Source of the DNA: a virus
Length of the DNA stretch: 61,715 nt
Reading direction: 5' to 3' (one strand)
IMG/VR virus record: IMGVR_UViG_3300021961_007533
Span: 1 to 61,715 of that record
Notes under the pieces: model-generated
Told to the model about the DNA's origin: nothing
Databases searched by the model: none
What the model saw: only the letters and a program-made list of their open reading frames with translations
Part shown: one piece after another, positions 11,671 through 47,354 of the stretch
How the letters are laid out: the number at the start of each line of letters is the position of its first letter
Numbering within the stretch: position 1 is the stretch's first letter
Made by a program: the position numbers and the translations under genes

Positions 11671-11692
11671 TCAAATCTTAAAATAGAATAAG

Positions 11693-11722: not shown

Positions 11723-11753
11723 TTGGTTAATTTAACAATTGGTTTTTTGTTCA

Positions 11754-11761
11754 TATTTATA
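11754..11761 (+). promoter_or_regulatory. Late-promoter-like box TATTTATA upstream of the membrane protein gene
   Basis: TATTTATA lies 40 nt before a five-codon mini-ORF (ATG at 11802, stop 11817-11819). The stop of the mini-ORF overlaps the ATG of the membrane protein gene at 11816. Confidence 0.4.
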
Positions 11762-11815
11762 ATATATACACAATCATTTTAATCCAATATATATTTTAAT
11801 TATGAAAAATTATAG

Positions 11816-12289
11816 ATGATAAGTCGATTTGACATATTTGAACGTTTATTTACAACTATTTTAGCTGTAGTATTACCATTTATAATTTATTTTACGTATC
11901 CAGAATTAAAAACAATTTCACAAAGCTGGATAACCCCATTACAACCAATGTTTATAATCACAAACGCACTTGTTAGCTTTTTCTTTTTTAAATTACCAAA
12001 GTGGAGAATTCCAGCGTTACTATTGTTGTTATTAACAGCATTTCCGGTTTGTGATTATTTTGTATTACATAATATTTTTGCGATATTATTTTTTATATTT
12101 TCTGGAATATCACTTCTTTCATTAAAAAAATTTAGATTTTATATATTAATATATATAATGTCTTTATTTTTTATAACTAGTGGACTTTTTTGGGTTGAGA
12201 CCTGGGCAATTATTACTTTATGTTTATATCATATGCACATTATGGTATACACATTACTCATTTCTAGAAATAGACCTAATCGCCTTTGA
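11816..12289 (+). CDS. Polytopic membrane protein, unknown function
   Basis: A 157-residue, very hydrophobic protein with about five predicted membrane segments: about 10-27, 42-58, 65-85, 87-106 and 110-150. It has no charged catalytic motif. A five-codon open frame at 11802-11819 ends on the start codon (ATGA overlap), so translation may be coupled. It converges with the gene at 12254-12469 and overlaps it by 36 bases. A lysis or superinfection-exclusion role is possible for a phage membrane protein of this size, but nothing in the sequence proves it. Confidence 0.65.
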   Translation: MISRFDIFERLFTTILAVVLPFIIYFTYPELKTISQSWITPLQPMFIITNALVSFFFFKLPKWRIPALLLLLLTAFPVCDYFVLHNIFAILFFIFSGISLLSLKKFRFYILIYIMSLFFITSGLFWVETWAIITLCLYHMHIMVYTLLISRNRPNRL

Positions 12290-19414: not shown

Positions 19415-19634
19415 TCCTAGAATTATGTTCTTTTAATAGTTTATTGTAGGTTAACTCTAGTCTATCTAGATGTTTTGTCATTTTAATCAAATGTTCTTTT
19501 GTGTTGTAAAAATCTAGTTTAACAAAACCAAGAGCCTTTTCCAAATCTTTATTAGACGAGTTCTTATAATCGGCAATAATTTTTAAAACATCATTAGCCA
19601 TAACCTTTTCATTTTCATTATAGTTTTTTTCCAT
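19404..19634 (-). CDS. Small helical protein in baseplate operon
   Basis: A 76-residue, predicted all-helical protein (NDVLKIIADYKNSSNKDLEK; LIKMTKHLDRLELTYNKLL). It overlaps the downstream gp5-like gene by 11 bases and the upstream 651-residue gene by 17 bases, so expression is coupled. A chaperone or small baseplate part is plausible from context, with no direct evidence. Confidence 0.6.
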   Translation of the reverse strand: MEKNYNENEKVMANDVLKIIADYKNSSNKDLEKALGFVKLDFYNTKEHLIKMTKHLDRLELTYNKLLKEHNSRNGK

Positions 19635-21573
19635 ATACTACTTTAGGTATTGTTTGTCCAATTGGTGTTGTGGATAAAAAGTCAACAGCAACTTGCACTT
19701 GACCATTTTCACTTTCTTCTTTATCCATACCATCAATCAAAGCTTTTATTGATGCAAGCATTAGGTTAGGACTCCCATCTGGCATTGGGCCTGTTGGTAG
19801 TCCAAGTTTCTCAAACTCCCCAATAACATTAATATATGCTCTACTTGCTGAAAATCCAGTTAAAAATCTAGAAGCTAGTAATAATGGTAATGGGATTTGA
19901 TCGTTAAATCCTTTTGATGCTATCTTTAGTAATTTTTGTAATTCATCTATCACACTTCTACAACTTCTAATATCTGAAATTAAACTAGCAATAGTTACTA
20001 AAACCTCGGCTAAGGTTAAAATTATTGCCATCTTTTTATTCTTTTTTTCCTTAGCAATATCCTGTGTAACATCCTGGATTAATTTTTTAATGTCCTTTAC
20101 CACCGAATCAAAAATAAGCTTAGCATATATACCACCAATTTTAGATGAAACGTTAATGAAAAAACTTCTAAAGTTTTTTATAAAGTCCATATAGTTGGTT
20201 ATATAATTCATACTATTATTACCTGTTGATTTCAAGGCAATCGATAGTGGCAATAATGTTTTAGGTGATAGAGCAGCCATAGTTACTGCCTTTGGGAATT
20301 CTTTTATAAATTCAGTATCGATATTAATTTTAAGGGGTAACCAATCTGGGTTTTGTGTTAACGTATTGGCAAGATTTGCCGCGTTTTCAATCTGATTAGA
20401 ATTATTTGTTCCAGGAACAAAAGACAAATTGTTTATTGCGTTTACAATTGCCAATGAATTTATTGGTAGTTTAACATTATCACACTCTAAAAACTCAGCA
20501 ACACCATTTAAAATATTAGATACTTGTCCATCAATAAAAGTAAGGTCAAGTTCGTCAAATTCAAAAAAAGCATCATCAACATTATCTAACTCTGATGTTT
20601 TAGCAGTACCAGACACATCAATTTCTTTTGTACTATCAAAACACAATCCAAGAATTCTTTGTAAAATTAAAAATACTTTTTGTAGACCTTCAAGATCACC
20701 CTTTCCGTCTCCCTTTTCTATTGATATCGCACCAGTTAGGATATTCATTAGATTTGCAAAAATGTTTTTAAAGTCAATAATATCTATTGTTTTATAATAA
20801 TCTTTTACAAAATCTTTTATTTTATTTCCAGTAATTCTATTGGCTGGTGTTACTTTAAAAAAGAAACCAGGGTTCCCAAGATCATCCTGCTCAACATAAG
20901 TAATGTCAAATAAGTCTTGTTGAGATGCACCAATATACTGTGAAGAATATTGTGTAGAAAATGGTTGTGATATATTTTGTATACGATTATATAATTCCCG
21001 ATTCATAGAGAATGGTTTTGCAGGAAATGGTGTTTGACTTTCTTCATAACTAATAGCACCAACCTTACTTGATGGGTCTATTTTTAATTGTCCTAATAAG
21101 TCAATTGATTGTACTTTAATATAAAAGTCTTGACCTGCGATAAACTCTTGCTCTTCGGAACATCCCGCAGCAGTTAAAATCTCGGTTCCTAATAATTCTA
21201 CTAGTTTTGGTTTTAAATCAATTAAAGCATTTATGAATTTGTTAACTATATATACTTTAACACTACTACCTTTATTATATTTACGTAAATTTTCTGGTTT
21301 AAAACTATCTAGAGCCTTTTCGAACTGATCCTCAGCAGAGATAAATTTAGTATCTAGTAGTTTATCTAATTGTGTTTCACTACTTTTTAAAGCTCTATTT
21401 GTTTTTTTCTTATAACTATTATATGTTCTAGTAACCTTACTCTTTTTATCTTCAAAGGTTTTACCAGCTTTTTTCTTTAATCTTTTGTAATCGGCGGTTA
21501 ACTTTTTATACTTTTTAGTCTTACTAATAGAATCATCAATATCAGTATACCCCTGTTCTATATCGAGAGCCAT
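19618..21573 (-). CDS. Large tail/baseplate structural protein
   Basis: A 651-residue protein of unknown family. Residues 10-70 are Lys-rich coiled coil (KKYKKLTADYKRLKKKAGK). A middle segment around 170-260 is beta-rich, and the C-terminal half contains hydrophobic helices (about 420-470 and 510-540: IILTLAEVLVTIASLISD). Mixed coiled-coil and hydrophobic-helix content is typical of tail tube/tape or baseplate proteins. It lies inside the operon leading to the spike protein. The hydrophobic helices might enter the host membrane during injection, but this is speculative. Confidence 0.65.
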   Translation of the reverse strand: MALDIEQGYTDIDDSISKTKKYKKLTADYKRLKKKAGKTFEDKKSKVTRTYNSYKKKTNRALKSSETQLDKLLDTKFISAEDQFEKALDSFKPENLRKYNKGSSVKVYIVNKFINALIDLKPKLVELLGTEILTAAGCSEEQEFIAGQDFYIKVQSIDLLGQLKIDPSSKVGAISYEESQTPFPAKPFSMNRELYNRIQNISQPFSTQYSSQYIGASQQDLFDITYVEQDDLGNPGFFFKVTPANRITGNKIKDFVKDYYKTIDIIDFKNIFANLMNILTGAISIEKGDGKGDLEGLQKVFLILQRILGLCFDSTKEIDVSGTAKTSELDNVDDAFFEFDELDLTFIDGQVSNILNGVAEFLECDNVKLPINSLAIVNAINNLSFVPGTNNSNQIENAANLANTLTQNPDWLPLKINIDTEFIKEFPKAVTMAALSPKTLLPLSIALKSTGNNSMNYITNYMDFIKNFRSFFINVSSKIGGIYAKLIFDSVVKDIKKLIQDVTQDIAKEKKNKKMAIILTLAEVLVTIASLISDIRSCRSVIDELQKLLKIASKGFNDQIPLPLLLASRFLTGFSASRAYINVIGEFEKLGLPTGPMPDGSPNLMLASIKALIDGMDKEESENGQVQVAVDFLSTTPIGQTIPKVVYGKKL

Positions 21574-26202: not shown

Positions 26203-27174
26203 TTATTTATTATAATAATTTAACCAGTAGGAAATCATCTCATCTAACATAGACTCAAATGTGTACTCAGGTTCCCATAATAATTCTTTCCTTAATTTTG
26301 TAGAGTCCCCTTTAAGGTTTTCTAATTCCTCTGGTCTCATATGTTTTTCATCTATCTTAATATAATCTAAATAGTTTAAATCTAATTCGTCAAAAACGTA
26401 CTTACATAAATCCATAACAGAATGTGAAATACCTGTGGCGCATACATAATCATCTGGTTTATCTGTTTGTAACATCATCCACATTGCCCTCACATAGTCT
26501 TTGGCATGTCCCCAGTCTCTTGTTGCAGATAAATTACCTATTGATAGTTTTTCTTGTAAACCTAATTTAATTCTTACCGCTGCTTTAACCACCTTATTAG
26601 TTACAAAGTTTGTTCCTCTTCTTGGTGATTCATGGTTAAAAAGAATCCCATTCCATATTTTCATACCATAAGAATTTCTATAATTTCTTGTTATATTGTA
26701 TGAAAATACTTTAGCGCACCCATATGGTGAAACAGGGTTCATAGGAGTTGTTTCTCTTTGATAACCATCACTATCAATGTTATTACCAAACATTTCTGAT
26801 GAAGAAGCCTGGTATACCTTAGATTTAGGTGATACCATTCTAATCGCTTCTAACAAATTAAGTACACCTAATCCAGTTGCGTTTGCGGTATATATTGGCT
26901 GATCAAAACTAACCTTAACGTGTGATTGTGCCGCCAAGTTATATATTTCATTAGGTTGTATTTTTTGTAATACACTAACTAGTGAAGCCATATCAGTTAA
27001 ATCGGCATATTCTAAATTAATTTTATCAAAAATATGATCTATTCTAACTGATTGTGTTTCTGATACAGAATTTCTTTTTACAATACCCCACACTTCATAA
27101 CCTTTATCTAAAAGAAATTCAGCTAAGTATGAACCGTCTTGTCCATTTATACCTGTTATTAAAGCTTTTTTCAT
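26203..27174 (-). CDS. gmd: GDP-mannose 4,6-dehydratase
   Basis: A 323-residue extended SDR enzyme converting GDP-D-mannose to GDP-4-keto-6-deoxy-D-mannose. The NAD(P)-binding motif is TGINGQDGSYLAEFLLDKG (about 7-25), typical of GMD. Further motifs are NLAAQSHVKVSFDQP (about 79-93), SSSEMFG (about 124-130), the catalytic YGCAK (about 151-155), and NHESPRRGTNFVT (about 180-192). Length is slightly below the usual 340-370. It overlaps the ColD-like gene by 4 bases, so both act on the same intermediate. Confidence 0.93.
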   Translation of the reverse strand: MKKALITGINGQDGSYLAEFLLDKGYEVWGIVKRNSVSETQSVRIDHIFDKINLEYADLTDMASLVSVLQKIQPNEIYNLAAQSHVKVSFDQPIYTANATGLGVLNLLEAIRMVSPKSKVYQASSSEMFGNNIDSDGYQRETTPMNPVSPYGCAKVFSYNITRNYRNSYGMKIWNGILFNHESPRRGTNFVTNKVVKAAVRIKLGLQEKLSIGNLSATRDWGHAKDYVRAMWMMLQTDKPDDYVCATGISHSVMDLCKYVFDELDLNYLDYIKIDEKHMRPEELENLKGDSTKLRKELLWEPEYTFESMLDEMISYWLNYYNK

Positions 27175-28346
27175 GTTTGGTACGCAAAGTTTAAAATTCT
27201 TGTTATTGTGTTAATGTCGGTTTCAGATAAGTCTTGGTGGTTTGGTACGTAGAAACCGTATTTATCTATTAGTTCACAGTTGGGTAAATCTTTTTGATCT
27301 TTATCCCACATAGGTTTATTTGCCATATTACCAGCGATTAAAGGTCTAACTTCAATATTAGATTCCTGTAGGGCTTTAACTAAGTAATTTCTTTCATTAT
27401 GGATTACTGGTATGGCAAAACTAGAAACGTAGTCACCCTCACGTTCAACCAACCGTAACTTACTGGTTAACATTAAATCTTTATATTTAAAGAAATTATT
27501 TCTTCTCTTTTCACTATACTCATCCAACCTATCAATAGCCTTAAGACCAATAAAAGCTTGTAGGTCTGTAGAACGTAGATTCATACCAGGTACATAGAAA
27601 TTATATAAGGCTTCAAAATCCGAACACCCATACTCTTCTCTAAGTTCCTTTTGTTTCCACTCAGGTAAATCCCTATCCCAACCATGACTTCTCATCATCA
27701 ACAACAAGTGATAGAAATCCTCATCATCTGTGTTAATGAAACCACCCTCAATAGTGGATAAGTGGTGCCCGAAATACATTGAAAAGAATGAAGCAAACCC
27801 AAAACTACCTAGATACTTACCTTGGTATTTAGACCCCATACTCTCACACACATCTTCTAATAACAATACACCATATTCTTCACATAAACGAAGAACTTCA
27901 TCCATTTGTGGTACTAAGCCTAGTGGAGAAACCAAAATCATAACTGACGGATTATGTTCCACAAATAATGATTCTAGATGGTTTAAATCACAAGAAAGAT
28001 CAGTTAAATTACAATCACACATAACTGTGTCGTAACCTAACAACATAGGTGAGCTAACATCCGTAGCCCAACTTAAAGCTGGTACCACGATTTTGTTGTT
28101 TTTTAATTTTCCTAATTGTTTTAATGCTGCTAATGTTAATAAGATTGACGATGAACCAGAATTCACAAACACCGAATACTTGGTACCAATCTTTTTAGCC
28201 CATTTTTTTTCCAATTCCCAAGTTAATTCACCCTTAGTGAGTCTTGGGATTTCATCTTGGGATAACCATTCAACTAAACTATTGATGTCATCTCTATTGA
28301 TTGTATCACTTACTAATTTTATCATATACTTTTTTAATTCCTTCAC
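27171..28346 (-). CDS. colD: GDP-4-keto-6-deoxy-D-mannose 3-dehydratase, ColD-type
   Basis: A 391-residue DegT/DnrJ/EryC1-fold PLP protein. The usual PLP-binding lysine is replaced by His: MYFGHHLSTIEGG places His194 where aminotransferases have Lys. This is the diagnostic change of ColD, whose catalytic base is His188 in E. coli. Other ColD-like features are LLLEDVCESMGS with the PLP-pyridine Asp165, MMRSHGWDRDLP (about 219-230), EVRPLIAGNM (about 331-340), and FYVPNHQDL (about 366). ColD removes the 3-hydroxyl en route to GDP-colitose. The adjacent GMD provides its substrate. The first 41 bases overlap the next gene; an internal Met8 start is possible. Confidence 0.82.
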   Translation of the reverse strand: MKELKKYMIKLVSDTINRDDINSLVEWLSQDEIPRLTKGELTWELEKKWAKKIGTKYSVFVNSGSSSILLTLAALKQLGKLKNNKIVVPALSWATDVSSPMLLGYDTVMCDCNLTDLSCDLNHLESLFVEHNPSVMILVSPLGLVPQMDEVLRLCEEYGVLLLEDVCESMGSKYQGKYLGSFGFASFFSMYFGHHLSTIEGGFINTDDEDFYHLLLMMRSHGWDRDLPEWKQKELREEYGCSDFEALYNFYVPGMNLRSTDLQAFIGLKAIDRLDEYSEKRRNNFFKYKDLMLTSKLRLVEREGDYVSSFAIPVIHNERNYLVKALQESNIEVRPLIAGNMANKPMWDKDQKDLPNCELIDKYGFYVPNHQDLSETDINTITRILNFAYQT

Positions 28347-29208
28347 TTAAAGATATTGTCTTAAAGTCAGGAAGTAAATTCTTAAGTTTATCAATTGATA
28401 CATCTTTTCTATATTGACCATCAGGTTTTGTTGAGTCGAAAATAATTTTGGTTTTGGGTAATCCACAAGAATTTAAAGCAATTTCAGCAATCCCCTTTAT
28501 TGATAAGTTATCTTCTGTTGCTACATTAAAATTTTCGTATATACCTCTTTCTAAACACTCATTAATAACCCAGGCTAAGTCATCTGAATGTATAAACTGC
28601 CTTAAAGGATTACCAGTACCAAATAATTCTAACTGATTACTACCTTCTTCCTCCATTTTAACTATTTTCTTAACTAAGGCAGCAATAAAATGACTATTCT
28701 TCCCAAATTTATCGTTCTCACCATATAAGTTACAAGGTATTAGGTATTGATATTTGGTTCCATATTGTTCGTTACAAGCGTCAATGTGTACAGCCAAACA
28801 TCTTTTAGCGTAACCATATGAGAAGTTTGTTGGGGTGGGTGGTCCTTGATGTAACATCTCTTCAGTCATTGGATATTCCTCTACTTTATTGGGGTAAATA
28901 CAAGTACTTAATATACCAATAAACCTTTTAACACCTGTAATTCTAGACCACTTAACTATATTAGTGTTCATTTGTATGTTATCTACAAAATACGTATCAG
29001 GGTTTTCTATGTTATCAATAATACCACCAACCTTAGCTGCTAAATGTATAACAACATCAAAATTGTTTCTACTCATTAATAAGGCTACTTCATTTTCATT
29101 GGTTAAATCACAATCTTTAGAGGATAGGTATGTGGCGTTAGGTAAAAACTTTTTTAAAGACTTACCAACCATTCCAGATCCACCAGTAACTAAAATCTTT
29201 TTACTCAT
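28306..29208 (-). CDS. GDP-L-fucose synthase / GDP-L-colitose synthase (ColC)-like epimerase-reductase
   Basis: A 300-residue extended SDR. Motifs: TGGSGMVGKSLKKFLP (about 8-23), HLAAKVGGI (about 56-64), LSTCIYPNK with the epimerisation Cys (about 101-109), FSYGYAKR with catalytic Tyr/Lys (about 129-136) and PCNLYGENDKFG with His further on (about 158-169 and about 174). It carries out 3,5- or 5-epimerisation and 4-reduction of a GDP-4-keto-6-deoxy sugar. Next to a ColD-type enzyme it may act as ColC, otherwise as fucose synthase; sequence alone cannot decide. It overlaps both neighbours. Confidence 0.85.
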   Translation of the reverse strand: MSKKILVTGGSGMVGKSLKKFLPNATYLSSKDCDLTNENEVALLMSRNNFDVVIHLAAKVGGIIDNIENPDTYFVDNIQMNTNIVKWSRITGVKRFIGILSTCIYPNKVEEYPMTEEMLHQGPPTPTNFSYGYAKRCLAVHIDACNEQYGTKYQYLIPCNLYGENDKFGKNSHFIAALVKKIVKMEEEGSNQLELFGTGNPLRQFIHSDDLAWVINECLERGIYENFNVATEDNLSIKGIAEIALNSCGLPKTKIIFDSTKPDGQYRKDVSIDKLKNLLPDFKTISLSEGIKKVYDKISK

Positions 29209-29962
29209 TTGTACTATTTTTAATAAATTCTAGATAATCGACATAAGGAAAAATTCCATTAACTCTTGACCCATCGGTACATGAGTTAATATTAACTTTA
29301 ATTCTCTTTCCTAGCTTAGCTATATTTTGATATGGCGACAAGTCATTACCAGCAACACCGGTTAAATTACTTTTAGAGGTCATATGACCCTTTCCATGGT
29401 AATTACTAATATAATGGTTTGGATCATTATCTGATGTGAATATCACCTTTGGTTTACCTTTATGCTCTCCTTCGGTATAAACACCATCAACCCTAACGTC
29501 TATTCTTGGGGCATATCTGGCGTCAACACCAACTAACCCTATGTTGTCATAACCCAACATAATTGCTATTTGTATTACATATGCTGTAACACTGTATTGT
29601 ATTGGTAGATTGTTAATTTTATTTGGTATTTTATTTTCCCACTCATTAAACTTAACGTAACTACCAAATCCAGTAACCACACTAACTCGTTCATCATCAA
29701 TTTGAGCAAACTTAAAATCGTCTTTAAGATCACATAGGAAAAATTTCTTAATGTATTTATTAGTCTTAACCAACTCCTTAATATCATCAACTAAAAACCT
29801 AGTAGAATTACCATCGATAATACAGTAATATGTTGGACTAAAGCCCCATTCATCATAAGACATAAACGCACCATTAACTGAGAATGTATCGATACCTTTT
29901 AATTTATCAATATCTATTTTATTCAACGATGGACCATTACCCATTATTATACAACTCTTCAT
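29201..29962 (-). CDS. GT42/DUF115-type putative glycosyltransferase
   Basis: A 253-residue protein. The start CIIMGNGPSLNKIDIDKL closely resembles the opening of Campylobacter Cst-type (GT42) sialyltransferases and of DUF115 (Maf-like) proteins. VTAYVIQIAIMLGYDNIGLV (about 125-144) followed by GVDARY fits their second nucleotide-binding strand. NHYISNYHGKGH (about 183-194) places His near the GT42 catalytic His. GT42 enzymes use CMP-activated acids such as sialic acid. It overlaps the neighbouring GT10 gene by 4 bases. A DUF115-only function is the main alternative. Confidence 0.65.
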   Translation of the reverse strand: MKSCIIMGNGPSLNKIDIDKLKGIDTFSVNGAFMSYDEWGFSPTYYCIIDGNSTRFLVDDIKELVKTNKYIKKFFLCDLKDDFKFAQIDDERVSVVTGFGSYVKFNEWENKIPNKINNLPIQYSVTAYVIQIAIMLGYDNIGLVGVDARYAPRIDVRVDGVYTEGEHKGKPKVIFTSDNDPNHYISNYHGKGHMTSKSNLTGVAGNDLSPYQNIAKLGKRIKVNINSCTDGSRVNGIFPYVDYLEFIKNSTNE

Positions 29963-30777
29963 TCCTTAATTTTTTTATAAACCCATTCATCCGGTAATAA
30001 GAATTCCTTAGCCTTAGCAAGGTTAGCCTTGATATATGGTAGCATTTCATTATATCTTTCTTCTGTTAAACTATTAACTAAACCTAGTACATTTGAGATG
30101 TCTTCAATATTATCAACAATAATAAAGCCTCTAGTGTCGAAGAAATCACCTATTGATGGACAACCCCAATATATTGGGACAGTTCCAGTTACTAAACAAT
30201 CGATAAGTTTTTCAGTAAACCAATAATCACGTTTACAGTTTTCAATAACAATATGGAACATATAATCTTTAAGACCATCTAATTTATAAACTAATGGATT
30301 GTACTTTCTACCATATACATCAAAATTAGTTAGGTGTCTATGTGTACTAATTACTTGATGTCTTAACTTATGACCGCTAGTTTCGGTCTTGTTAGATGCT
30401 ATGATACTAATAAATTTTGACTTTGGCCACATTCTTTGGTCTTCTAGTTTAATCCAACAACAACCAAATGGAACAAAAGTATATGGACTACCTAAGTCTA
30501 GTAATGTTTTTTCGTGTGTAAAAACCTTATAAAAAAAATGTTCATTTTGTTTAATTATACTATAATTTTTAGGTGAAATATCAACAGGCTCTATTAACCA
30601 CGCATAGTTTTTACCAATATCGTTTTTTTTAACAAGATTAAGAGTCATATCGGTATAAACTATATCACCACTAATGTTATTTCTATCCCACACAAACTGT
30701 TTTGATGTTTGAAAGTCGCTACAGTACCCTAATTTCGAATGACTAAAAGATTTATCAACAATACTTATTTTATCCAT
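29959..30777 (-). CDS. Glycosyltransferase family 10 (alpha-1,3-fucosyltransferase-like)
   Basis: A 272-residue GT10 protein. The family signature is clear: DYMFHIVIENCKRDYWFTEK then LIDCLVTGTVPIYWG (about 172-207), the GDP-fucose-binding motif of bacterial alpha-1,3/4-fucosyltransferases. WLIEPVDISP in the N-terminal acceptor domain also fits. It uses GDP-L-fucose or a related GDP-deoxy sugar such as colitose, which the neighbouring GMD/ColD/ColC-like genes can supply. Shorter than eukaryotic enzymes and without a signal anchor, so it is cytosolic. Confidence 0.88.
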   Translation of the reverse strand: MDKISIVDKSFSHSKLGYCSDFQTSKQFVWDRNNISGDIVYTDMTLNLVKKNDIGKNYAWLIEPVDISPKNYSIIKQNEHFFYKVFTHEKTLLDLGSPYTFVPFGCCWIKLEDQRMWPKSKFISIIASNKTETSGHKLRHQVISTHRHLTNFDVYGRKYNPLVYKLDGLKDYMFHIVIENCKRDYWFTEKLIDCLVTGTVPIYWGCPSIGDFFDTRGFIIVDNIEDISNVLGLVNSLTEERYNEMLPYIKANLAKAKEFLLPDEWVYKKIKE

Positions 30778-31783
30778 TTAAATAATCTTTTAATATTTCT
30801 TTAATTATATTTGGGTTTTCTTGTGTTAGAAACATATTACCAAGACCTTTGGTTAAAACTAACCCAAAAGTTAGGTCTATGTTTTTCTTGTCTTTACTTA
30901 AAGCATTCATCATATCATCTAATTCGATATGTGGTAATTCCTTTATTTTATGTACGTACTTTAAAACATCGTACATTTCATCGTACTCTTCTTTATTTAT
31001 ATACCCTAGACTCATTGAAACGTAGTTAGACATATCCATACCATATGAAACAGCAATTCCATGTGGAATATCATAACTTGTTATCGACTCAATTGCATGA
31101 CCAAAAGAATGTCCATAATTAAAAACACGTCTAGGGCCAATATCAAATTCATCAATCTCAACCATACGTTTTTTAATTTTTAAACTATGTTGTATTAGTG
31201 ATTTTACGTCAAGTTGATCTATATTGAATAAATAATCTCTAAAAAAGTCAAATGACTCTTTACCATCTATAAAAAAATAATGCGCCATTTCACCTATACC
31301 TGAATACGTTTGTAGTGTTGTTAGAGTTTTTAGAAAATTAGTATCTATTATGATTTTATGTGGTGGATAAAATCCGCCTATTTGATTTTTATACTCACCA
31401 AAATTTATAGATGTCTTACCTCCAATACAACTATCACCTTGAGCTAATAATGTTGTTGGGAAGAAAACCCATTTAACACCTCTATAAAGAATTGAGGATA
31501 TAAAACCTGATATATCTTGTACCACGCCACCACCTATTGCTATAATTTTATTGTTCTTTCTAAACCCACATTCAATAATATTATTAATTATTGATGTTAT
31601 GTAACTATATTCTTTACTACGTTCAGTGGCGTCTACAACAAATTTTGGGTTGTCTTGTATAACTTTCCAAAAATCACCTAATAGATTACCATCAACAATT
31701 ATATAATCACCTTTATCCACTTCTATATCATTTATAGAACCAAACTCAACCATATAATTATGTACACTAGATTTTATTTCCAT
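30770..31783 (-). CDS. Sugar phosphate cyclase of the 3-dehydroquinate synthase superfamily
   Basis: A 337-residue protein with clear DHQS-type motifs: GGGVVQDISGF (84-94, NAD-binding), FPTTLLAQGDSCIGGKTSIN (108-127), SGIGEMAHYF (161-170), and RRVFNYGHSFGHAIE (218-232), then PHGIAVSYGM. The metal ligands appear kept as E165, H225/H229 and H241. In DHQS the GxAExxKY motif has Lys; here it is His168. The neighbours are a GmhA-like SIS isomerase, an SDR and a CMP-sugar synthetase rather than shikimate genes. I infer cyclisation of a heptulose phosphate (as in valiolone-type synthases) or a related sugar, not shikimate synthesis. Confidence 0.82.
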   Translation of the reverse strand: MEIKSSVHNYMVEFGSINDIEVDKGDYIIVDGNLLGDFWKVIQDNPKFVVDATERSKEYSYITSIINNIIECGFRKNNKIIAIGGGVVQDISGFISSILYRGVKWVFFPTTLLAQGDSCIGGKTSINFGEYKNQIGGFYPPHKIIIDTNFLKTLTTLQTYSGIGEMAHYFFIDGKESFDFFRDYLFNIDQLDVKSLIQHSLKIKKRMVEIDEFDIGPRRVFNYGHSFGHAIESITSYDIPHGIAVSYGMDMSNYVSMSLGYINKEEYDEMYDVLKYVHKIKELPHIELDDMMNALSKDKKNIDLTFGLVLTKGLGNMFLTQENPNIIKEILKDYLNG

Positions 31784-32463
31784 TACATATTAATTGTATA
31801 TCCACCATCAACCACTATGTTTTGTCCTGTAACATACGTGTTTAAGTCACTAACAAAAAAACTAACTAAATTTGCTATATCCTCCACTTCGCCAAACCGG
31901 TTCATAGGGATTCTTTCAACTAGGTAGTCTTTATCTGATTGAGTTAACATTGAATCGGTTAATTCTGTATTGGTAAATCCTGGTGATATAGAATTAACTA
32001 AAATACCATATGGTGCCAAATCACAAGCCATAGTTCTAGTCATACCATTTAAACCACTTTTAGATGTGGTATAGGACAATCTTCCTTGGGAAGAACCAGT
32101 TCCTTTTATTGATGATATGTTTACTATTCTACCATACCCTCTTTTTTTCATACCCTCACAAACAACTTGAGTCACTCTAAAAGGTCCATATAGGTTAACT
32201 TTCTGTACTTTGTCGAAATCTTCGTAAGAAACATCACCGATAAAATTATTAATACATATACCAGCGTTGTTTACTAATATATCAATATCAGTGTCTTTGA
32301 TTTTATCTAAGAAGTTTTTAGTGGATTCTTCATTTGAAAAATCCACTTCACTAGTACTAGTTCGTATAACTTTAGCACCATAAGATTCTAGTTTATCACT
32401 AATGGCTTTACCTATGCCTCTAGAACCACCAGTTACTAACGCCTTTTTTCCATTTAAATTCAT
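31783..32463 (-). CDS. Short-chain dehydrogenase/reductase (FabG-like)
   Basis: A 226-residue classical SDR. Motifs: VTGGSRGIGKAISDKL (about 9-24, NAD(P)-binding), NNAGICI (about 65), SSIKGTG (about 118) and the catalytic YTTSK (about 131-135), then NSISPGFTNTEL. It lies between the SIS isomerase and the cyclase, sharing a base with each, so it probably acts on their intermediate, for example reducing a keto cyclitol. It is not a fatty-acid gene by context; the substrate is unknown. Confidence 0.87.
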   Translation of the reverse strand: MNLNGKKALVTGGSRGIGKAISDKLESYGAKVIRTSTSEVDFSNEESTKNFLDKIKDTDIDILVNNAGICINNFIGDVSYEDFDKVQKVNLYGPFRVTQVVCEGMKKRGYGRIVNISSIKGTGSSQGRLSYTTSKSGLNGMTRTMACDLAPYGILVNSISPGFTNTELTDSMLTQSDKDYLVERIPMNRFGEVEDIANLVSFFVSDLNTYVTGQNIVVDGGYTINM

Positions 32464-33077
32464 TACTTAGTTGGGTTTCTATCAATACTTTCCGCGGCAC
32501 CTTTTCTCACTACCTCATCTTTTATTGATGGGCATTGTGCGCCACAAGCATGAATTAAATCATAAAATAATATTAAAGTAAGTACCTCAACAGTATGAAA
32601 ATACTTACATTCTAAATTTATTTCATTAACTTTTTCTGGGAGTACTTGACTTTTAGCGCCAGATATTAAAGCCGATTTAAAACCATTTTTTTTTGCCCAA
32701 TGTAAACAAGATATTACATTCTTAGAGTTGCCTGAACAAGATAATGCAATAATCATAACTTTTTTACCATCCATTTTCCCTGTCTGTTTTGCTAAATCTA
32801 ACCAATTAAGGAATAGGTTATTATAACCATAATCGTTAGCAATACTAGTAATCAAACATTGACTTTCCATTGTGGAAATATGTTTCTTAATACCAGCTTT
32901 TGCAAAAAGTCTTGTACAGTCATCCGCCGCATGATTACCAACCGCCCATAATCCACCATTAGCGACTATATAAATGTCATCGCATTCATTAAAATCCTTT
33001 ACAAATTTTTCCCACTCTTTTGTTGTTAATGTTTTTTCGAATTTTTCTTCAATATTTTCAAAATCAATATTTGACAT
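32463..33077 (-). CDS. Phosphoheptose isomerase-like SIS protein (GmhA-type)
   Basis: A 204-residue SIS-domain protein. Family features: ANGGLWAVGNHAADDCTRLF (about 39-58), SIANDYGYNNLFLN (about 78-91), SGNSKNVISCL (about 115) and FHTVEVLTLILFYDL (about 160). GmhA interconverts sedoheptulose 7-phosphate and glycero-manno-heptose 7-phosphate. As the first gene of a SIS-SDR-cyclase group, it may supply or consume a C7 sugar phosphate. An AT-rich promoter-like repeat lies upstream. No HldE/HddA kinase was found, so the route differs from the usual ADP/GDP-heptose pathway. Confidence 0.82.
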   Translation of the reverse strand: MSNIDFENIEEKFEKTLTTKEWEKFVKDFNECDDIYIVANGGLWAVGNHAADDCTRLFAKAGIKKHISTMESQCLITSIANDYGYNNLFLNWLDLAKQTGKMDGKKVMIIALSCSGNSKNVISCLHWAKKNGFKSALISGAKSQVLPEKVNEINLECKYFHTVEVLTLILFYDLIHACGAQCPSIKDEVVRKGAAESIDRNPTK

Positions 33078-33090
33078 AATAATTATTTTT

Positions 33091-33112
33091 TATAATTATA
33101 ATTATAATTATA
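33091..33112 (-). repeat. TATAAT-type hexanucleotide repeat in an intergenic gap
   Basis: A short (TATAAT)-like repeat of about 3.5 units sits in the 62-base gap between the SIS gene start and the upstream CMP-sugar synthetase gene. On the - strand it offers several TATAAT hexamers before the SIS-SDR-cyclase unit; it could be a promoter or simply AT-rich sequence. Confidence 0.5.
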
Positions 33113-33139
33113 TTTTTTTTAATTTAAAGTTTTTATTTA

Positions 33140-34321
33140 TTATTTTACATATACATGTGCCATTTCTTTTCCACCACAAGCTAATCTAACACCAGGTTCA
33201 TCACTAATACAAGAAATAATGTGTACAGTTCCTTTAGGTAAAAATACTAAATTACCTGATTTTGCGACTATTATTTTATCGGGACTTCCTTTTGGGTTTT
33301 CTCTATTGTACCATAATTTATATTCAAACTCACCCCTATAGATAACCCACCATTCATCTTTAGTGGGATGATAATGTTTTCTACAACCTTTACCTTTAGA
33401 TTGTCTTATAAAAGCGATTTGATCATTATCGGTATAAACTACAGGGTAACACCAATCATCATCACCTAGTTTTTTTTCTATCTCATCTAAATCCATTAAG
33501 GTTTCATTATGACCTAATACATCTTCTGATGGTATTGGTGATCCGTCTAACGCTATTAAATCAACTAAAGCAGATTCAATAGAAGTTATATTATTATGGT
33601 AATAAAATTTACCAACACTATCTTTTCTTTTTCTATGATTTAAACAAGCTTCTGCAATGTACAATTCATCCATTGTGTCTACATCTATAGCCTCTATTTT
33701 ACTTATAGGGAAGTACCCAAATTCCCCACAAAAAGTAGGCCCTGTTTCATATTCTTTTATAAAAGTTTCTTTTTTCCACCCTGTCATTGCCCAGCAAATA
33801 GAATCTACTGGTGATAATGACTGTGTTTCTTGTTTTTTCTTAGGGTTAAAATTTATGGGTTTACCATCCATAAAACTCTCAGAGTATGTTTGTTCTGTCG
33901 TTACTAGAGAATCGTAATATTCTAGTTTTTTAGAAAAATTATATATTGTTTTAGGTTCTAACAATGGCGATGTTGTGTGTACTTGTATTATGTAATCACA
34001 TTCTATATTCTTAATAAAATCATAAAGAAAATGATCATGTATTGTACATCTATTACCACCACAATCCTTAGAATTATTTATCATAGTACATTTAGAACCA
34101 CCATTTTTTTCATCTCTATAATAAAACTTAACACCTAATTCTTTGGCTATTTGTTTAAAAATTAAGCTATCTGAATTAATATATATTTCATCAAAAGCTT
34201 CTGATTTTTTACAAGACTTTACAACATAGTATATTAATGGGAAACCGTCAACTAACATTAGGTTTTTGTTAGGTACTCTAGTACTATTTAATAACGCTGG
34301 TATTACTGCGACTTTTTTCAT
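33140..34321 (-). CDS. CMP-sugar synthetase fused to a C-terminal cupin
   Basis: A 393-residue two-domain protein. Residues 1-230 form a CMP-NeuAc/KDO-synthetase-like domain: VIPALLNSTRVPNKNL (6-21, nucleotide-binding loop), INSDSLIF (about 48) and QVHTTSPLLEP (about 113). An insertion at 78-97 holds C78, C87, C92 and His95/His97, which might bind metal. Residues 290-393 are a cupin: CRKHYHPTKDEWWVIYRG with the first His pair and Glu, and NLVFLPKGTVHIIS with the last His. The cupin may isomerise or oxidise the sugar before or after CMP attachment. No sialic acid or KDO synthase occurs here, so the activated sugar is probably the product of the nearby cyclase branch. Confidence 0.8.
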   Translation of the reverse strand: MKKVAVIPALLNSTRVPNKNLMLVDGFPLIYYVVKSCKKSEAFDEIYINSDSLIFKQIAKELGVKFYYRDEKNGGSKCTMINNSKDCGGNRCTIHDHFLYDFIKNIECDYIIQVHTTSPLLEPKTIYNFSKKLEYYDSLVTTEQTYSESFMDGKPINFNPKKKQETQSLSPVDSICWAMTGWKKETFIKEYETGPTFCGEFGYFPISKIEAIDVDTMDELYIAEACLNHRKRKDSVGKFYYHNNITSIESALVDLIALDGSPIPSEDVLGHNETLMDLDEIEKKLGDDDWCYPVVYTDNDQIAFIRQSKGKGCRKHYHPTKDEWWVIYRGEFEYKLWYNRENPKGSPDKIIVAKSGNLVFLPKGTVHIISCISDEPGVRLACGGKEMAHVYVK

Positions 34322-34349
34322 TTTTAAGTGTATTGTATATGTTGATTTT

Positions 34350-35132
34350 TTATAAAAATAAATTTTTGGTTAGATACTTATCTAGCTTTATTATTTCCTT
34401 ATTTTCGTTATATAATTTTTTAAAATATTCTATTTGGGGTTTTTGTTTATGTATTTTATGTGCATGACTATCTTTATCTATATTTTGACCAGAACTTTCT
34501 ACCGAATCTTTATAGTCATCATAGTAAATATCACCAAACTTACCCATATTATAAAACGTTAAACCGGCAACGTAGAGTTCCTTTATATTATAGTTCATTA
34601 AAAAAATAATACCCATTAACCCACTATTTGGCACAGTCCCAACGTCTTTAAACACCTTATAGATATATCTATCATTTAGTCTTGTAGAATTTACACCATC
34701 CCTAATTAATTTCTCAAAGAAATTAATTTTAGGTTGATAGTTAGAACTAGGCATAACCCCTATAATGTGTTGAAAAGACTTTATATATTCATAATTTTTA
34801 TCGCACTCTTTAATGTTTTCACTATTAAAACTACCTATTAGTATGTCATTTCTAGATCCGTAATCTTTTTCATTTTTGGTTGAAAGTTTAAATTTTTGAT
34901 TTACTCTTACCACAACATCATATGAGTCTATTAGATTACCATCACCCAAACCAATTAAGGATGGTGCTGGACCCACTAACGCAACTCTTTTATTTGTTAC
35001 AATATTTTCTATATTAGGGATTTTAGTGTGTTCCATAAACCCATTTACATCTTTAATTAAAGAATGATTGGGTGTACCTGGTTCTATAGTTATTGAATCC
35101 CACTTATTCATTTTTTCATATAGTTTACCCAA
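34350..35132 (-). CDS. GT29 sialyltransferase-like protein
   Basis: A 260-residue protein with the sialylmotifs of family GT29. The L motif lies at about 49-79 (RVALVGPAPSLIGLGDG, then IDSYDVVVRVN), the S motif at about 165-195 (VPNSGLMGIIFLM), and a His-rich DSHAHKIHKQ (about 222) precedes the C-terminal acidic helix. GT29 enzymes transfer a CMP-activated sugar. It sits 28 bases upstream of the CMP-sugar synthetase, so the two probably act in sequence. There is no membrane anchor, unlike eukaryotic members. It overlaps the FkbM gene by 25 bases. Confidence 0.82.
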   Translation of the reverse strand: MGKLYEKMNKWDSITIEPGTPNHSLIKDVNGFMEHTKIPNIENIVTNKRVALVGPAPSLIGLGDGNLIDSYDVVVRVNQKFKLSTKNEKDYGSRNDILIGSFNSENIKECDKNYEYIKSFQHIIGVMPSSNYQPKINFFEKLIRDGVNSTRLNDRYIYKVFKDVGTVPNSGLMGIIFLMNYNIKELYVAGLTFYNMGKFGDIYYDDYKDSVESSGQNIDKDSHAHKIHKQKPQIEYFKKLYNENKEIIKLDKYLTKNLFL

Positions 35133-35728
35133 ACATAATTATATTCATATGTTGGTATGAATGACTCCCTTATCACAGTTTCAATTAGAACCTTTCTATT
35201 ATCATAGTCTTTACCATACCTATGAAATTGTATTTGTAGATTGTTAAAAATGGATAAATTATTACCTTCAATAAGACCCTCTAAAATGTTATACTCCTCA
35301 CCCTCAACATTTAATTTCATTAAATCGACTTTACTTAGGTTTAATTTTTTTAATGTCTGATTAATATCAACAAGTTTAATAGTTTCTTTTGTACCATTAT
35401 TAGTATAAATAGATGACGCATCATTCTCTATCGAAATATCAACACTCCTATCCATATTGGATAGACCATAGTTGTGAACATACACCTTATCGTTACCATT
35501 AAATTTTTCCTTTATTATGTCATAAAACTTTTTAACAGGCTCAAAAATATGAATTGTACATTTATACTTTTCAAATATGTCGCTTGCCCATTCACCTTTA
35601 TAACCACCGCCATCGATAACTATTGAGTTTTCATTTAGATTATAATTTAACCTAAGTGTTTTATCTCCATTATTTAATTTCCATTGTTCTACTAACTTGT
35701 GATGATTCATAATTAAAGTTTTATCCAC
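35108..35728 (-). CDS. FkbM-family methyltransferase
   Basis: A 206-residue SAM-dependent methyltransferase. Visible motifs are SIVIDGGGYKGEWASDI (about 31-47, SAM-binding loop), IHIFEPVKKFYD (about 55), GLSNMDRSV (about 83) and LMKLNVEGEEYNILEGL (about 136), the family hallmark. FkbM-like enzymes O-methylate sugars in bacterial glycans. It overlaps both neighbours, within a run of glycosyltransferases, so the likely target is a sugar of the phage-directed glycan. Confidence 0.85.
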   Translation of the reverse strand: MDKTLIMNHHKLVEQWKLNNGDKTLRLNYNLNENSIVIDGGGYKGEWASDIFEKYKCTIHIFEPVKKFYDIIKEKFNGNDKVYVHNYGLSNMDRSVDISIENDASSIYTNNGTKETIKLVDINQTLKKLNLSKVDLMKLNVEGEEYNILEGLIEGNNLSIFNNLQIQFHRYGKDYDNRKVLIETVIRESFIPTYEYNYVWVNYMKK

Positions 35729-39983: not shown

Positions 39984-40711
39984 TATTTTAATTCTTTTAA
40001 TGTTTTTATTACTTCAACTAAAACGTTGACATCTTTTTCACAGTATTCTGCGATTTTATCTAAGTTTCTTTTTTCCCAGTAGTTTTCATGAACATTCTCA
40101 CCACTTACTTCACCATCCTTTGGTGTTGGGATATCTAAACAAGAACATAATAAGTCCAATGACCCAATTGATGTATAGGCGCCATATTGCCAAATTTCTT
40201 TTGTGTCAATTGCTTTAACTTCCCAAGGCTTGGTATCATATGATGGTAAGATTTTAGAAGGTCTAATACCATTTACAATCATTCTTTTTGCAAGCATTGG
40301 AATATCAAAATTCTTTAAGTTATGTCCACATAAATGAAAGTCTAGTTTTTCACAACGATCAAGTAGATTTCTAACCTCAATTAATAATTGTGTCTCGTCT
40401 TCATTTGAGAATGTTTGTTTTTTAATCTCACCATTATCCATAACAAAAGCCATTGACACACAGATAACTTTTGCAAACTCTGGAACTAATGCGGCACGTT
40501 TTTTAAAAACATAGTTCATATGTTCTTCTGTTGTCATATTAATCTGTTCATTGGTCGCATCTTCTGGAAACCTTTTTAAAAACCAATTAAAGTATTTATC
40601 AAATTGGTCTGCTAGATTTGGATTAAACTTTTGGCATGACTCAAAATCAGGACAACCGCCAACAGTCTCGATGTCAAGGAATAAAATTTTTGTAATAGGA
40701 ATATTAATCAT
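39983..40711 (-). CDS. DnaQ-like 3'-5' exonuclease (PolB-type family)
   Basis: A 242-residue DEDD-type exonuclease. Exo I: KILFLDIETVGGCPD (about 8-22, D and E). Exo II: DFHLCGHNLKNFDIPMLAKR (about 129-148, central D). Exo III: IAEYCEKDVNVLVEV (about 220-234, Y-x(3)-D). It is a separate polypeptide here rather than a polymerase domain, and could proofread or process DNA ends. Located between dUTPase and a nucleotidyltransferase. Confidence 0.88.
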   Translation of the reverse strand: MINIPITKILFLDIETVGGCPDFESCQKFNPNLADQFDKYFNWFLKRFPEDATNEQINMTTEEHMNYVFKKRAALVPEFAKVICVSMAFVMDNGEIKKQTFSNEDETQLLIEVRNLLDRCEKLDFHLCGHNLKNFDIPMLAKRMIVNGIRPSKILPSYDTKPWEVKAIDTKEIWQYGAYTSIGSLDLLCSCLDIPTPKDGEVSGENVHENYWEKRNLDKIAEYCEKDVNVLVEVIKTLKELK

Positions 40712-41159
40712 TTTTTACTTCGTTATAAATTTTAGGATTTTGTTTTAGTGTCTGTATTGTAATTAAATCTTTTATTCTAGTTGTTGACCAACCATGTGAT
40801 CTAGTTGTATAAATAACCTCAATTGGAAGATGGTCACCTGTAAATCTATTACCAATGTAGTCATCACCTAATATTCTAACATCTGGTTTATAAAATTGTA
40901 TTAAACGAAGTAAATCATCTTCATCATCATAACATACTACCTCATCAATATATTTTATTGCCATTAGAGTTTTATATCTTTCATATAAAGGAATTACAGG
41001 TTTATATTTTGTAAACCTTGTTTCAGATGGGTCTCTTTGTAAAAAAACCATAAAATAATCACAATTTTCCTTTGCAGTTTCAAATGTGTATATGTATCCA
41101 GGGTGTAGTAAGTCAAAATTACCAGCAGTAAACCCTATTCTTCCTTTTTTACTATCCAT
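40704..41159 (-). CDS. Cytidylyltransferase-like nucleotidyltransferase
   Basis: A 151-residue protein of the HxGH nucleotidyltransferase superfamily: FTAGNFDLLHPGYIYTFETA (about 9-28), YKPDVRILGDDYIGN (about 92-106), and a final GWSTTRIKDLI matching the I-S-S-T-x-R motif. The second His of HxGH is Tyr here (H-P-G-Y). Relatives activate glycerol-3-phosphate or heptose-1-phosphate with CTP/ATP. It overlaps genes on both sides and heads the glycan group, so nucleotide-sugar or -alcohol activation is likely. The Tyr change could alter catalysis. Confidence 0.75.
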   Translation of the reverse strand: MDSKKGRIGFTAGNFDLLHPGYIYTFETAKENCDYFMVFLQRDPSETRFTKYKPVIPLYERYKTLMAIKYIDEVVCYDDEDDLLRLIQFYKPDVRILGDDYIGNRFTGDHLPIEVIYTTRSHGWSTTRIKDLITIQTLKQNPKIYNEVKND

Positions 41160-45155: not shown

Positions 45156-47354
45156 ATGGCTTACCAAAATATTAATCAATATAACTATAAAAAGTATGGT
45201 CTTAATATTATCTATGATGGAATGGATATGTCCTTAGCATCAGATGAACGAGATTATAATGAAGAGGTTGTTTTTTCACCATATATTATAGCGCAAACAT
45301 ACGGTAACAAATTACCTTTTTATTTTGACTTAAACGATACTGATATATGTCAGAATATTAACCTATATTATAAAGATTTTAATCCTAACAATATTTTAGT
45401 CTCACAAAACTACTACGACCCAAATAACGATAATTTTAATTGTTTTTCTGCGACATCATCATGTGACATTGGTTTTACTGGAATTGACAATGGTTTAGTT
45501 GATAACATTAGTAATCAGACAATTTATTTCACAAATGGTATTTTTGAACCATCAGTTAAATTTAGTAGAAAATATTTTGATAGAAGACTAAAGTTATTTC
45601 AAGTAACTGGTTATACCGGATCGTATGAAAGATTCGAAGCTTTTAATAAAAATACTTTATATGAAGTTGTCAGTAAAGAAGATGTAAACTTTGGTAGATA
45701 CCATGATTTGTATGGGGGGTTTTACCAAGGGTTTTATAAATTATTTGGTTATGATTATGATATATTCCCAGAAAGAGTTAATAAAGGTTGGAGTGTTGAG
45801 ATGGTTTTAAGACCTAGACTATATGATGAATACACGCCAGGACCAAATGAAACTACTTTAAATCAAATATACCCAAATAATAAAAATACGTTTTTTTATT
45901 TAGGAGCTAGAGCTGAAAATAAGTTTTACCATTATGCGGATGGGACACCAGAATGTTTTAGCGCCTACACTAGAGTAACAACTCCATTAGCTGAGTGTTT
46001 AGAAACTTGCGCTTGTTGTAATGATAATATAACAAATAGTAGATGTATATATCTTTATCCACCAAGATCTATAAATGGTTTACATGATCCACACGTGAAT
46101 TATGGTTGTAATAGTTGTGGAGGAAATGTTGTTAGCGCGACTACTTGTGGTTGTGGATGCTATGACTCAAAATGTACTAGCTGTGGATGGGAATGTAAAA
46201 CGCATAATTGCGATGAAATTATTTTAGTAACCCCAACCCCAACACCAATACCTAGTCAGACACCAACTTGTAATACACAACAAACACCAATTTGTACACC
46301 AACATGTTCTACTTGTAATACATGTTCTACTTGTGATGATTGTGTAACACTAGGATATAAATCAATAGAGGATACGTGTGAAAAAGACCCATTATTTGAT
46401 TCGATGTCAAACAATATCTCTTTTAAACTATGTGGTGACCCAAAAAATCCTAGTATTGGGATTAAGGTTTTAAGATTTACAGGTGGGTGTGAGACAACTG
46501 GAACTTGTGTTACAGGGCAAACTTATGTTACTGGATATACAATACAAGAGTGGTGTACAGACCCAATATATCCTTATTGTGAAAAAGAAAATCCAGCTTT
46601 TTTAGATTATGAACATTGGTTTTTACTAGATGTTGTTTGGGAAAGAAATACTAACTTGGACAACTGTGACTTATGGTGGTATGGAGGCCTAGGAGATATA
46701 ACAAAAACTGAATATTTAGAATCTTTAGCAAACAATACAACATCTTTAATCGCACCACCATACACAAACAACAGTTCAGTTGCTAAAACTGTTGATATAG
46801 TAAATTTAAATGAAAAATGGTTAGATGATTCTAAATATAGAAAAGGTAAATTAAAAATTTATGTTAATGGTGTTTTAATTTACACTATTAATGATTTTGA
46901 GGAAATAATACCTAGAGGATTAAATACAGATAAAGAAAAACAAGTTGGTGTACCATTTAACGTTTCTTGGGGCGGAGGAACACAAGGGTTACATGAAAAT
47001 TTAATACCTTCTTCTTGCGATAATTTAACCGGAGACTATATTCAGGACCCAGAGTCATTTCCAACATCAGCATTAAATAATTCATATTTATCTGGACTAA
47101 AGACAGACATTTTATTAGAACAAGAGTTTGGGGGCACTTTTGATGGTGGTATTTCACAATTTAGATTATATGTTGAGCCATTAGATGCTACAGAGGTAAG
47201 ACATAATTTTAATGTATTAAAAGATAAATTTGGTTTCTTTAATCCATTTTGTCCTAATTGTAAAACAGTATTTTGTGCACCAAATGATTTTACATATCAA
47301 ATAACTGATACGTCTACAACAATTGTTACCACAACAACAACTATGTTTATATGA
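45156..47354 (+). CDS. Tail surface protein with LamG-like fold and Cys-rich insertion
   Basis: A 732-residue protein. Segments such as WSVEMVLRPRLYDEY (about 210), WFLLDVVWERN (about 488) and GKLKIYVNGVLIYTINDFEE (about 565-584) follow a concanavalin/LamG-like beta-sandwich pattern. Between its strands, residues 278-400 hold a dense Cys-rich region (ETCACCND, CGCGCYDSKCTSCGWECKTH, TCSTCNTCSTCDDC) with a Thr-Pro run (TPTPTPIPSQTP). The Cys may form disulfides or bind metal outside the cell. It ends with Thr repeats (TTTTTMFI). It heads the tail-fibre operon. Carbohydrate binding is possible but unproven. Confidence 0.72.
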   Translation: MAYQNINQYNYKKYGLNIIYDGMDMSLASDERDYNEEVVFSPYIIAQTYGNKLPFYFDLNDTDICQNINLYYKDFNPNNILVSQNYYDPNNDNFNCFSATSSCDIGFTGIDNGLVDNISNQTIYFTNGIFEPSVKFSRKYFDRRLKLFQVTGYTGSYERFEAFNKNTLYEVVSKEDVNFGRYHDLYGGFYQGFYKLFGYDYDIFPERVNKGWSVEMVLRPRLYDEYTPGPNETTLNQIYPNNKNTFFYLGARAENKFYHYADGTPECFSAYTRVTTPLAECLETCACCNDNITNSRCIYLYPPRSINGLHDPHVNYGCNSCGGNVVSATTCGCGCYDSKCTSCGWECKTHNCDEIILVTPTPTPIPSQTPTCNTQQTPICTPTCSTCNTCSTCDDCVTLGYKSIEDTCEKDPLFDSMSNNISFKLCGDPKNPSIGIKVLRFTGGCETTGTCVTGQTYVTGYTIQEWCTDPIYPYCEKENPAFLDYEHWFLLDVVWERNTNLDNCDLWWYGGLGDITKTEYLESLANNTTSLIAPPYTNNSSVAKTVDIVNLNEKWLDDSKYRKGKLKIYVNGVLIYTINDFEEIIPRGLNTDKEKQVGVPFNVSWGGGTQGLHENLIPSSCDNLTGDYIQDPESFPTSALNNSYLSGLKTDILLEQEFGGTFDGGISQFRLYVEPLDATEVRHNFNVLKDKFGFFNPFCPNCKTVFCAPNDFTYQITDTSTTIVTTTTTMFI

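Follow-up and report, generated by a model that had tools for sequence, protein, structure and literature searches.

The stretch of DNA analyzed here, from a marine phage (the window; 61,715 nucleotides, positions 1 to 61,715 of the IMG/VR virus record IMGVR_UViG_3300021961_007533) contains five adjacent open reading frames (ORFs) at 30770-35132, all on the minus strand. In order of transcription, they encode a GT29-like glycosyltransferase, a CMP-sugar synthetase fused to a cupin, a SIS-domain protein, a short-chain dehydrogenase/reductase (SDR), and a sugar-phosphate cyclase resembling AroB, the 3-dehydroquinate synthase (DHQS). The five genes had been pointed out in an earlier examination of the letters of the window (the sequence-only reading), and they are present as described there. 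The SIS gene shares one base with the SDR gene, as does the SDR gene with the cyclase gene, and the genes for the CMP-synthetase and GT29 are close upstream (intergenic gaps of 62 and 28 bases upstream of the SIS gene), so the five genes are probably co-transcribed.

The cyclase (30770..31783, 337 amino acids [aa]) has the Pfam domains DHQ_synthase and DHQS_C. It scores 380 bits with TIGR04425 (cut-off 400) and 264 bits with aroB (cut-off 305), both below threshold; we refer to it as TIGR04425-type because TIGR04425 is its nearest family, with the score under the cut-off. TIGR04425 is the uncharacterized NCBIfam family P_lya_rel_AroB, AroB-related putative sugar phosphate phospholyases. The SDR (31783..32463, 226 aa), the constant partner of the cyclase, matches adh_short_C2 with an E value of 2e-52. 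The SIS-domain protein (32463..33077, 204 aa) resembles sugar-phosphate isomerases and retains the phosphate-binding SCSGNS stretch. The sequence-only reading had called it GmhA-like; the likeness to GmhA is distant (47.6 bits, far under the gmhA cut-off of 209).

The CMP-synthetase (33140..34321, 393 aa) belongs to the NeuA/KdsB family and matches CTP_transf_3 (PF02348) with 64.8 bits (E value of 1e-17; cut-off 22.6). A profile of 13 of its relatives matched the CMP-N-acetylneuraminic acid (NeuAc) synthetase 1qwj at 6e-27 in the Protein Data Bank (PDB), including the C-terminal DxD stretch, and all substrate-specific NCBIfam models, those for the 3-deoxy-D-manno-octulosonic acid (KDO), NeuAc, pseudaminic acid and legionaminic acid synthetases, are far below cut-off. 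Its C-terminal cupin gives profile matches to oxalate-decarboxylase-type cupins; synthetase and cupin are separate genes in three related loci (L004, L027, and L035). The GT29-like protein (34350..35132, 260 aa) reaches 22.7 bits with PF00777 as a single sequence, just short of the cut-off of 23, and a 12-sequence profile matches ST3Gal1 at 3e-6. It contains sialylmotif-like L and S stretches, and the best 29 PDB matches of its predicted structure in Foldseek are all GT29 sialyltransferases, with ST8SiaIII, ST6Gal1, and ST6GalNAc2 at the top (TM score of about 0.5). An accessory MptE-like protein (29201..29962, minus strand; PF01973, 44.7 bits), which recurs in the module, may be a second CMP-sugar transferase; its start (IIMGNGPSLNKID) presumably resembles GT42 sialyltransferases.

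Recurrence in viruses and bacteria

Scans of viral sequences gave 29 distinct related contigs carrying TIGR04425-type genes, with cyclase identities of about 40-57% and TIGR04425 scores of 298-432 bits (10 of 29 above 400); at least 28 viral contigs other than the window carry the set. The SIS, SDR, and CMP-synthetase/cupin genes accompany the cyclase gene wherever the flank suffices, in shuffled order. Of the cyclase-bearing loci, 24 have 5 kb or more of flank on either side of the CMP-synthetase gene; SIS was found within 7.5 kb of that gene in all 24, the SDR in 23, GT29 in 21, and an aminotransferase in 20; at L131, the locus without an SDR call, the SDR is present just beyond 7.5 kb. Because the set recurs in 29 divergent contigs, the grouping is, on this genomic evidence, beyond chance. 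Its composition is not fixed: the SDR and cyclase genes can be exchanged together, as described below, and the usual viral set includes a class-III aminotransferase, none of which was found in the window. The SDR gene adjoins the TIGR04425 gene in nearly all viral loci, L119 being the main exception, and in 20 of the 20 bacterial loci inspected.

A search of 50,697 named phage records gave no relative of the CMP-synthetase/cupin. The same records gave 15 cyclase matches, all below 60% identity and of AroB type where inspected; the one match that was opened (H1) is an ordinary bacterial aroB beside aroK in an Acinetobacter contig and was rejected. As the named phages lack a relative of the CMP-synthetase/cupin and their cyclase matches are distant, uncultivated viruses and a minor fraction of bacterial genomes are so far the only places where this chemistry has been seen. 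None of the module genes lay alongside the ordinary AroB genes of L014 and L015. Chlorobiaceae loci were rejected as carriers of the module, being AroB-type (L014 tested) and without it.

The bacterial loci fall into two groups. Besides the SIS, SDR, cyclase, and CMP-synthetase genes, those of the first (for example L007-L010, L012, L013, L056, L057, and L060) contain genes for a D-2-hydroxyacid dehydrogenase and an inositol-dehydrogenase-like Gfo/Idh protein, and some also encode formamidase-like and YhcH proteins. L009 belongs to Pedobacter yonginense, a cultured carrier. The grouping of SIS with SDR, cyclase, and CMP-synthetase is found in viruses and in some bacteria, in viruses usually with a GT29-like gene. 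In L066 (positions 2905-12000), a TIGR04425/SIS/SDR/CMP-synthetase-cupin cluster lies near a flagellin gene, which suggests flagellin glycosylation with the pathway sugar. In the second group (L055, L058, L059, and L061-L063), the SDR-cyclase pair lies among genes for thiamine pyrophosphate (TPP) enzymes and often for CDP-sugar-type enzymes. The gene immediately after the pair encodes a NeuB-type synthase in L062 and an HpcH/HpaI-type protein in L055 and L061, the two loci tested for the latter. Viral L119 (707-5513) resembles this group in its TPP-NeuB-cyclase arrangement. This setting possibly serves another undescribed branched or carbocyclic sugar.

Several observations separate the window cyclase from AroB of the shikimate pathway. 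All seven bacterial genomes reached via close relatives carry a TIGR04425 gene (405-429 bits) and a separate AroB-like gene (216-249 bits). In a phylogenetic tree, the TIGR04425-type clade, with viral and bacterial members interleaved, is split from AroB with 99% SH-aLRT support; the sole exception, the row L072_AroB, is a wrong-frame extraction and was disregarded. TIGR04425 is rare, being above cut-off in 10 of 396 Bacteroidota-side and 5 of 399 Pseudomonadota genomes, samples that both include genomes used as centers. By family score and phylogeny, the window cyclase is distinct from shikimate AroB.

Cyclase pocket and exchange with HAD genes

The cyclase was compared with the eleven residues named for the pocket of S. 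aureus DHQS that binds 3-deoxy-D-arabino-heptulosonate 7-phosphate (DAHP) (PMC6262012). It keeps 10 of the 11, with His168 in place of S. aureus Lys181. This lysine is Lys197 in the A. nidulans numbering; His takes its place in 29 of 30 viral members and 11 of 14 bacterial members of the CMP type, and Lys is found in the other bacterial group. Lys250, Arg264, Asn268, and His275 of the substrate site (same numbering) are invariant, and Arg264 and Lys250 presumably sit near the substrate carboxylate. The divergent Ebo-type cyclase L068, used for comparison, reads ARPLDFGH at this place, unlike the window cyclase. An AlphaFold model of the window cyclase (pLDDT 94) has the DHQS fold, which matches DHQS, 2-deoxy-scyllo-inosose synthase (DOIS), and ValA about equally; fold comparison fails to separate DHQS, DOIS, and 2-epi-5-epi-valiolone synthase (EEVS).

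A further 19 viral contigs keep the CMP-synthetase/cupin, mostly with the aminotransferase, SIS, and GT29-like genes, and lack the SDR-cyclase pair; TIGR04425 was not found anywhere in their records. Where the flank was sufficient, single-sequence searches placed a HAD gene near the CMP-synthetase gene in 13 of 13 cyclase-lacking loci versus 2 of 25 cyclase-bearing loci, a count that favors the former group since the HAD seeds came mostly from it. A seed-free count of HAD motifs gave 9/13 versus 3/25 (p 6e-4). In a tree of the CMP-synthetase domain, the cyclase state changes at least nine times. Four well-supported independent pairs are all compatible with an exchange of HAD and cyclase, and the two never change in the same direction in them, a number of pairs too small for significance. 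Three sister pairs have the replacement at the same position, one clearly and two more loosely.

The clearest pair is L131 (IMG/VR contig 3300042446_002147 or 3300042863_002243) and L146 (3300032331_002637), in which the SDR and cyclase genes are swapped exactly for one gene, at 15055-15591 of L146, encoding a 178-aa HAD protein similar to KdsC and the phosphatase of 2-keto-3-deoxynononic acid (KDN) 9-phosphate. The distal flanks are 98-100% identical at the protein level and the SIS proteins 98%, the CMP-synthetases 84%, and the aminotransferases 81%. The two contigs show alleles of a glycan island exchanged in nature. Both contigs also encode KDO-8-phosphate synthase (KdsA) and a KdsD-like isomerase a few kilobases from the module. 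In cyclase-lacking L116, a DAHP synthase gene adjoins the aminotransferase gene beside the CMP-synthetase gene, and an HpcH-type aldolase is encoded in L118 and its relatives. Across the related viral records, PF00793 was found in 4 of 48 and PF03102 in 4 of 48; two of the PF03102 hits are the DAHP synthases again, matched weakly. In L118 and L152, the SIS ORF is 325 aa long and apparently includes a HAD domain like the one that stands in for the SDR and cyclase, a fusion hinting that both act in one pathway.

Proposed pathway and alternatives

Our results make it fairly probable that the five genes form one pathway for a CMP-activated acidic sugar that is transferred to a glycan. Recurrence in the 29 viral contigs and the structural matches of the GT29-like protein lend support to the central idea of the sequence-only reading, a single pathway that joins a sugar-phosphate cyclase, an SDR, CMP activation, and an enzyme of sialyltransferase fold. 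The SIS enzyme would supply a sugar phosphate. A phosphorylated 2-keto-3-deoxy sugar acid, DAHP or a related compound, would be provided by the host or, in some relatives, by a synthase that the phage encodes. We favor this type of substrate because the SDR-cyclase pair is swapped for a HAD protein resembling KdsC and KDN-phosphate phosphatase, because ulosonate-type synthases and aldolases lie nearby in relatives, and because 10 of the 11 DAHP-pocket residues are kept. The TIGR04425-type enzyme would then oxidize the substrate transiently with NAD+ and eliminate the phosphate, doing the job of the HAD phosphatase in sister viruses, and would most likely close a carbocycle in the manner of DHQS. 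The resulting ketone would be reduced by the SDR, the carboxylated product activated by the CMP-synthetase/cupin and transferred to a phage or host glycan by the GT29-like enzyme and perhaps also by the MptE-like protein. In most relatives, the class-III aminotransferase would probably add an amino group.

In DHQS, phosphate is removed via transient oxidation and beta-elimination, and the final steps, including ring closure, are thought to be largely spontaneous (PMC7144000); carbocyclization of a DAHP-like acid is therefore the most economical reading. This raises the possibility, which we put forward tentatively, that a carbocyclic, CMP-activated analogue of an ulosonic acid is made by phages and by some members of Bacteroidota and Pseudomonadota. 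In this analogue, a DHQS-type reaction would have replaced the ring oxygen with carbon, and an enzyme of sialyltransferase fold would place it on a glycan.

Several points weigh against this proposal. KdsA and DAHP-synthase queries gave no match among the window ORFs (NeuB was not searched separately), so the substrate must come from the host. The CMP ester of a carbocycle would be without the ring oxygen that normally stabilizes the transition state of glycosyl transfer, although GDP-valienol and the pseudoglycosyltransferases indicate that nucleotide-activated carbocycles are usable (PMC9200736). The SDR-cyclase pair could also feed a side branch, as the rest of the module does without it. 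For the HAD exchange, the seeds of the first count came mostly from cyclase-lacking loci, the seed-free count is less extreme, and the four tree pairs are too few for significance. What the sequences show directly is which genes make up the set, that they are conserved, and that SDR and cyclase constantly go together; from this we infer substrate and product.

The main rival dispenses with ring closure. Oxidation and elimination of phosphate would give a methyl ketone that is reduced by the SDR or aminated by an aminotransferase. The product, activated with CMP as usual, would be a terminally deoxygenated ulosonic acid, in many cases also aminated: a linear-chain compound related to pseudaminic or legionaminic acid. 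CMP-synthetases of the NeuA/KdsB family and GT29 enzymes normally use 2-ulosonic acids with a true anomeric center, and the YhcH family, a member of which is encoded in a bacterial cluster, includes a sialic-acid anomerase. The KDO-8-phosphate synthase in a relative fits as well, since a C8 phosphate suits elimination better than closure of a six-membered ring, and the change of Lys197 to His indicates an altered pocket. Nearly all DHQS pocket residues are nevertheless kept, and with the last DHQS steps largely spontaneous after elimination (PMC7144000), a DAHP-like substrate would cyclize. We regard this alternative as rather unlikely.

It is less likely still that two pathways share the locus, with the SIS and CMP-synthetase/cupin enzymes (and the aminotransferase) making a CMP-sugar for GT29 and the SDR and cyclase making an unrelated metabolite, for example a quinate-like one. 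Such a division would accommodate the 19 contigs that hold the rest of the module without the pair and the bacterial pairs that lie amid CDP-sugar-type and TPP-enzyme genes with no CMP-synthetase nearby. In the viral contigs examined, however, the pair is found with the module, at or near the HAD site of sister viruses, and the CMP-synthetase and aminotransferase of L131 and L146 diverge beyond the nearly identical flanks, as expected if they are matched to a changed sugar.

In the sequence-only reading, the substrate is sedoheptulose 7-phosphate or some other C7 sugar phosphate; its cyclization would give a valiolone-like cyclitol with seven carbons, which would be reduced and activated with CMP. 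Sedoheptulose 7-phosphate cyclases are DHQS homologues, and cyclitols can be nucleotide activated, as is GDP-valienol in the acarbose and validamycin pathways (PMC9200736); the SIS protein is distantly GmhA-like, and the predicted fold suits DHQS, DOIS, and ValA alike. Our results do not support this part: the DAHP pocket is kept, including the Lys/Arg pair among the four invariant residues that are replaced by another sequence in Ebo-type L068, and the neighboring enzymes in relatives, ulosonate-forming enzymes and HAD proteins resembling ulosonate phosphatases, belong to ulosonate pathways. We consider a C7 cyclitol improbable. An ordinary host-derived AroB boosting the shikimate pathway as an auxiliary gene can practically be dismissed in spite of clear homology and the retention of most catalytic residues, given the closer match to TIGR04425, the separate clade, the AroB-like paralogue retained in bacterial carriers, the pocket His in nearly every viral copy, and the position of the cyclase gene, nearly always beside the SDR gene and in glycan clusters.

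Genomic setting and known pathways

The five genes are part of a glycan island roughly 16 kb long, which also holds GDP-deoxysugar-type genes, GT10, GT11, and further glycosyltransferase-like genes, and an FkbM methyltransferase gene. On the minus strand, a GT10 fucosyltransferase-like gene (29959..30777; PF00852) overlaps the cyclase gene by 8 bases, and the FkbM gene (35108..35728; PF05050 and TIGR01444) lies at the other end of the cluster. GDP-mannose dehydratase-like, DegT aminotransferase-like, and GDP-fucose synthase-like genes (26203..29208, minus strand; NF047922, Fcl-like, 202 bits) form the deoxysugar arm of the island, and most related loci have relatives of these genes in their flanks. 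Where the island ends, 40704-41159 encodes a small protein that looks like a glycerol-3-phosphate cytidylyltransferase, and a similar protein adjoins KdsA in L131. The major capsid gene of the window is T4-like, and its similarity to that of Flavobacterium phage immuto, the nearest named phage, hints at a Bacteroidota host. The product of the pathway could decorate the virion or the host surface. PADLOC gave no match. Of five large ORFs elsewhere in the window, those at 17876-19414, 19618-21573, and 51150-54506 are without a match in PHROG, the one at 45156-47354 has a marginal match only, and that at 48459-51143 has a weak match to a virion structural protein.

Our searches found neither a published description of TIGR04425 or of this gene set nor a substrate for the family; most subscription papers lay outside the search, and an earlier description is possible. 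TIGR04425 now gains a consistent setting, with an SDR partner, ulosonate-forming neighbors, CMP activation, and natural exchange with HAD-family genes, so that a reaction open to testing takes the place of a vague annotation. Should the product be carbocyclic, phages would decorate glycans with a sugar mimic resistant to the usual cleavage by ordinary glycosidases, and CMP-carba-ulosonates would form a new class of sugar mimics activated by a nucleotide, one exchanged naturally for an ordinary phosphatase route.

Among known systems, the C7-cyclitol pathways of acarbose and validamycin (AcbC/ValA, GDP-valienol, and a pseudoglycosyltransferase) likewise transfer a carbocycle that a DHQS-like cyclase forms and that is reduced and nucleotide activated (PMC9200736). 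They differ in that a cyclitol phosphate without a carboxylate is activated with GDP and handled by a different transferase, whereas the pocket described here is DHQS-type. The aminoshikimate pathway to 3-amino-5-hydroxybenzoic acid (AHBA) uses DAHP-synthase-like and DHQS-like enzymes with an aminotransferase. The DAHP synthase beside the aminotransferase and CMP-synthetase in L116 recalls it, but that pathway yields an aromatic starter unit and involves neither CMP activation nor glycosyl transfer. TIGR04425 is the best-scoring family for the window cyclase and includes several viral and all seven tested bacterial relatives above cut-off, yet the window protein is 20 bits short of it, and Lys197 is His in the viral and CMP-cluster clade.

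The CMP pathways of KDO and nonulosonic acids (KdsD-KdsA-KdsC-KdsB and NeuB-NeuA) share with the module a SIS-fold isomerase, a CMP-synthetase of the NeuA/KdsB family, and a sialyltransferase-type transferase, as well as the HAD protein resembling KdsC and KDN phosphatase in sister viruses and, in one pair, KdsA and a KdsD-like gene. In contrast to these pathways, the module has an AroB-like phospholyase and an SDR in place of the phosphatase; its CMP-synthetase carries a fused cupin, most relatives have a class-III aminotransferase in addition, and the window has no match to the KdsA or DAHP-synthase queries.

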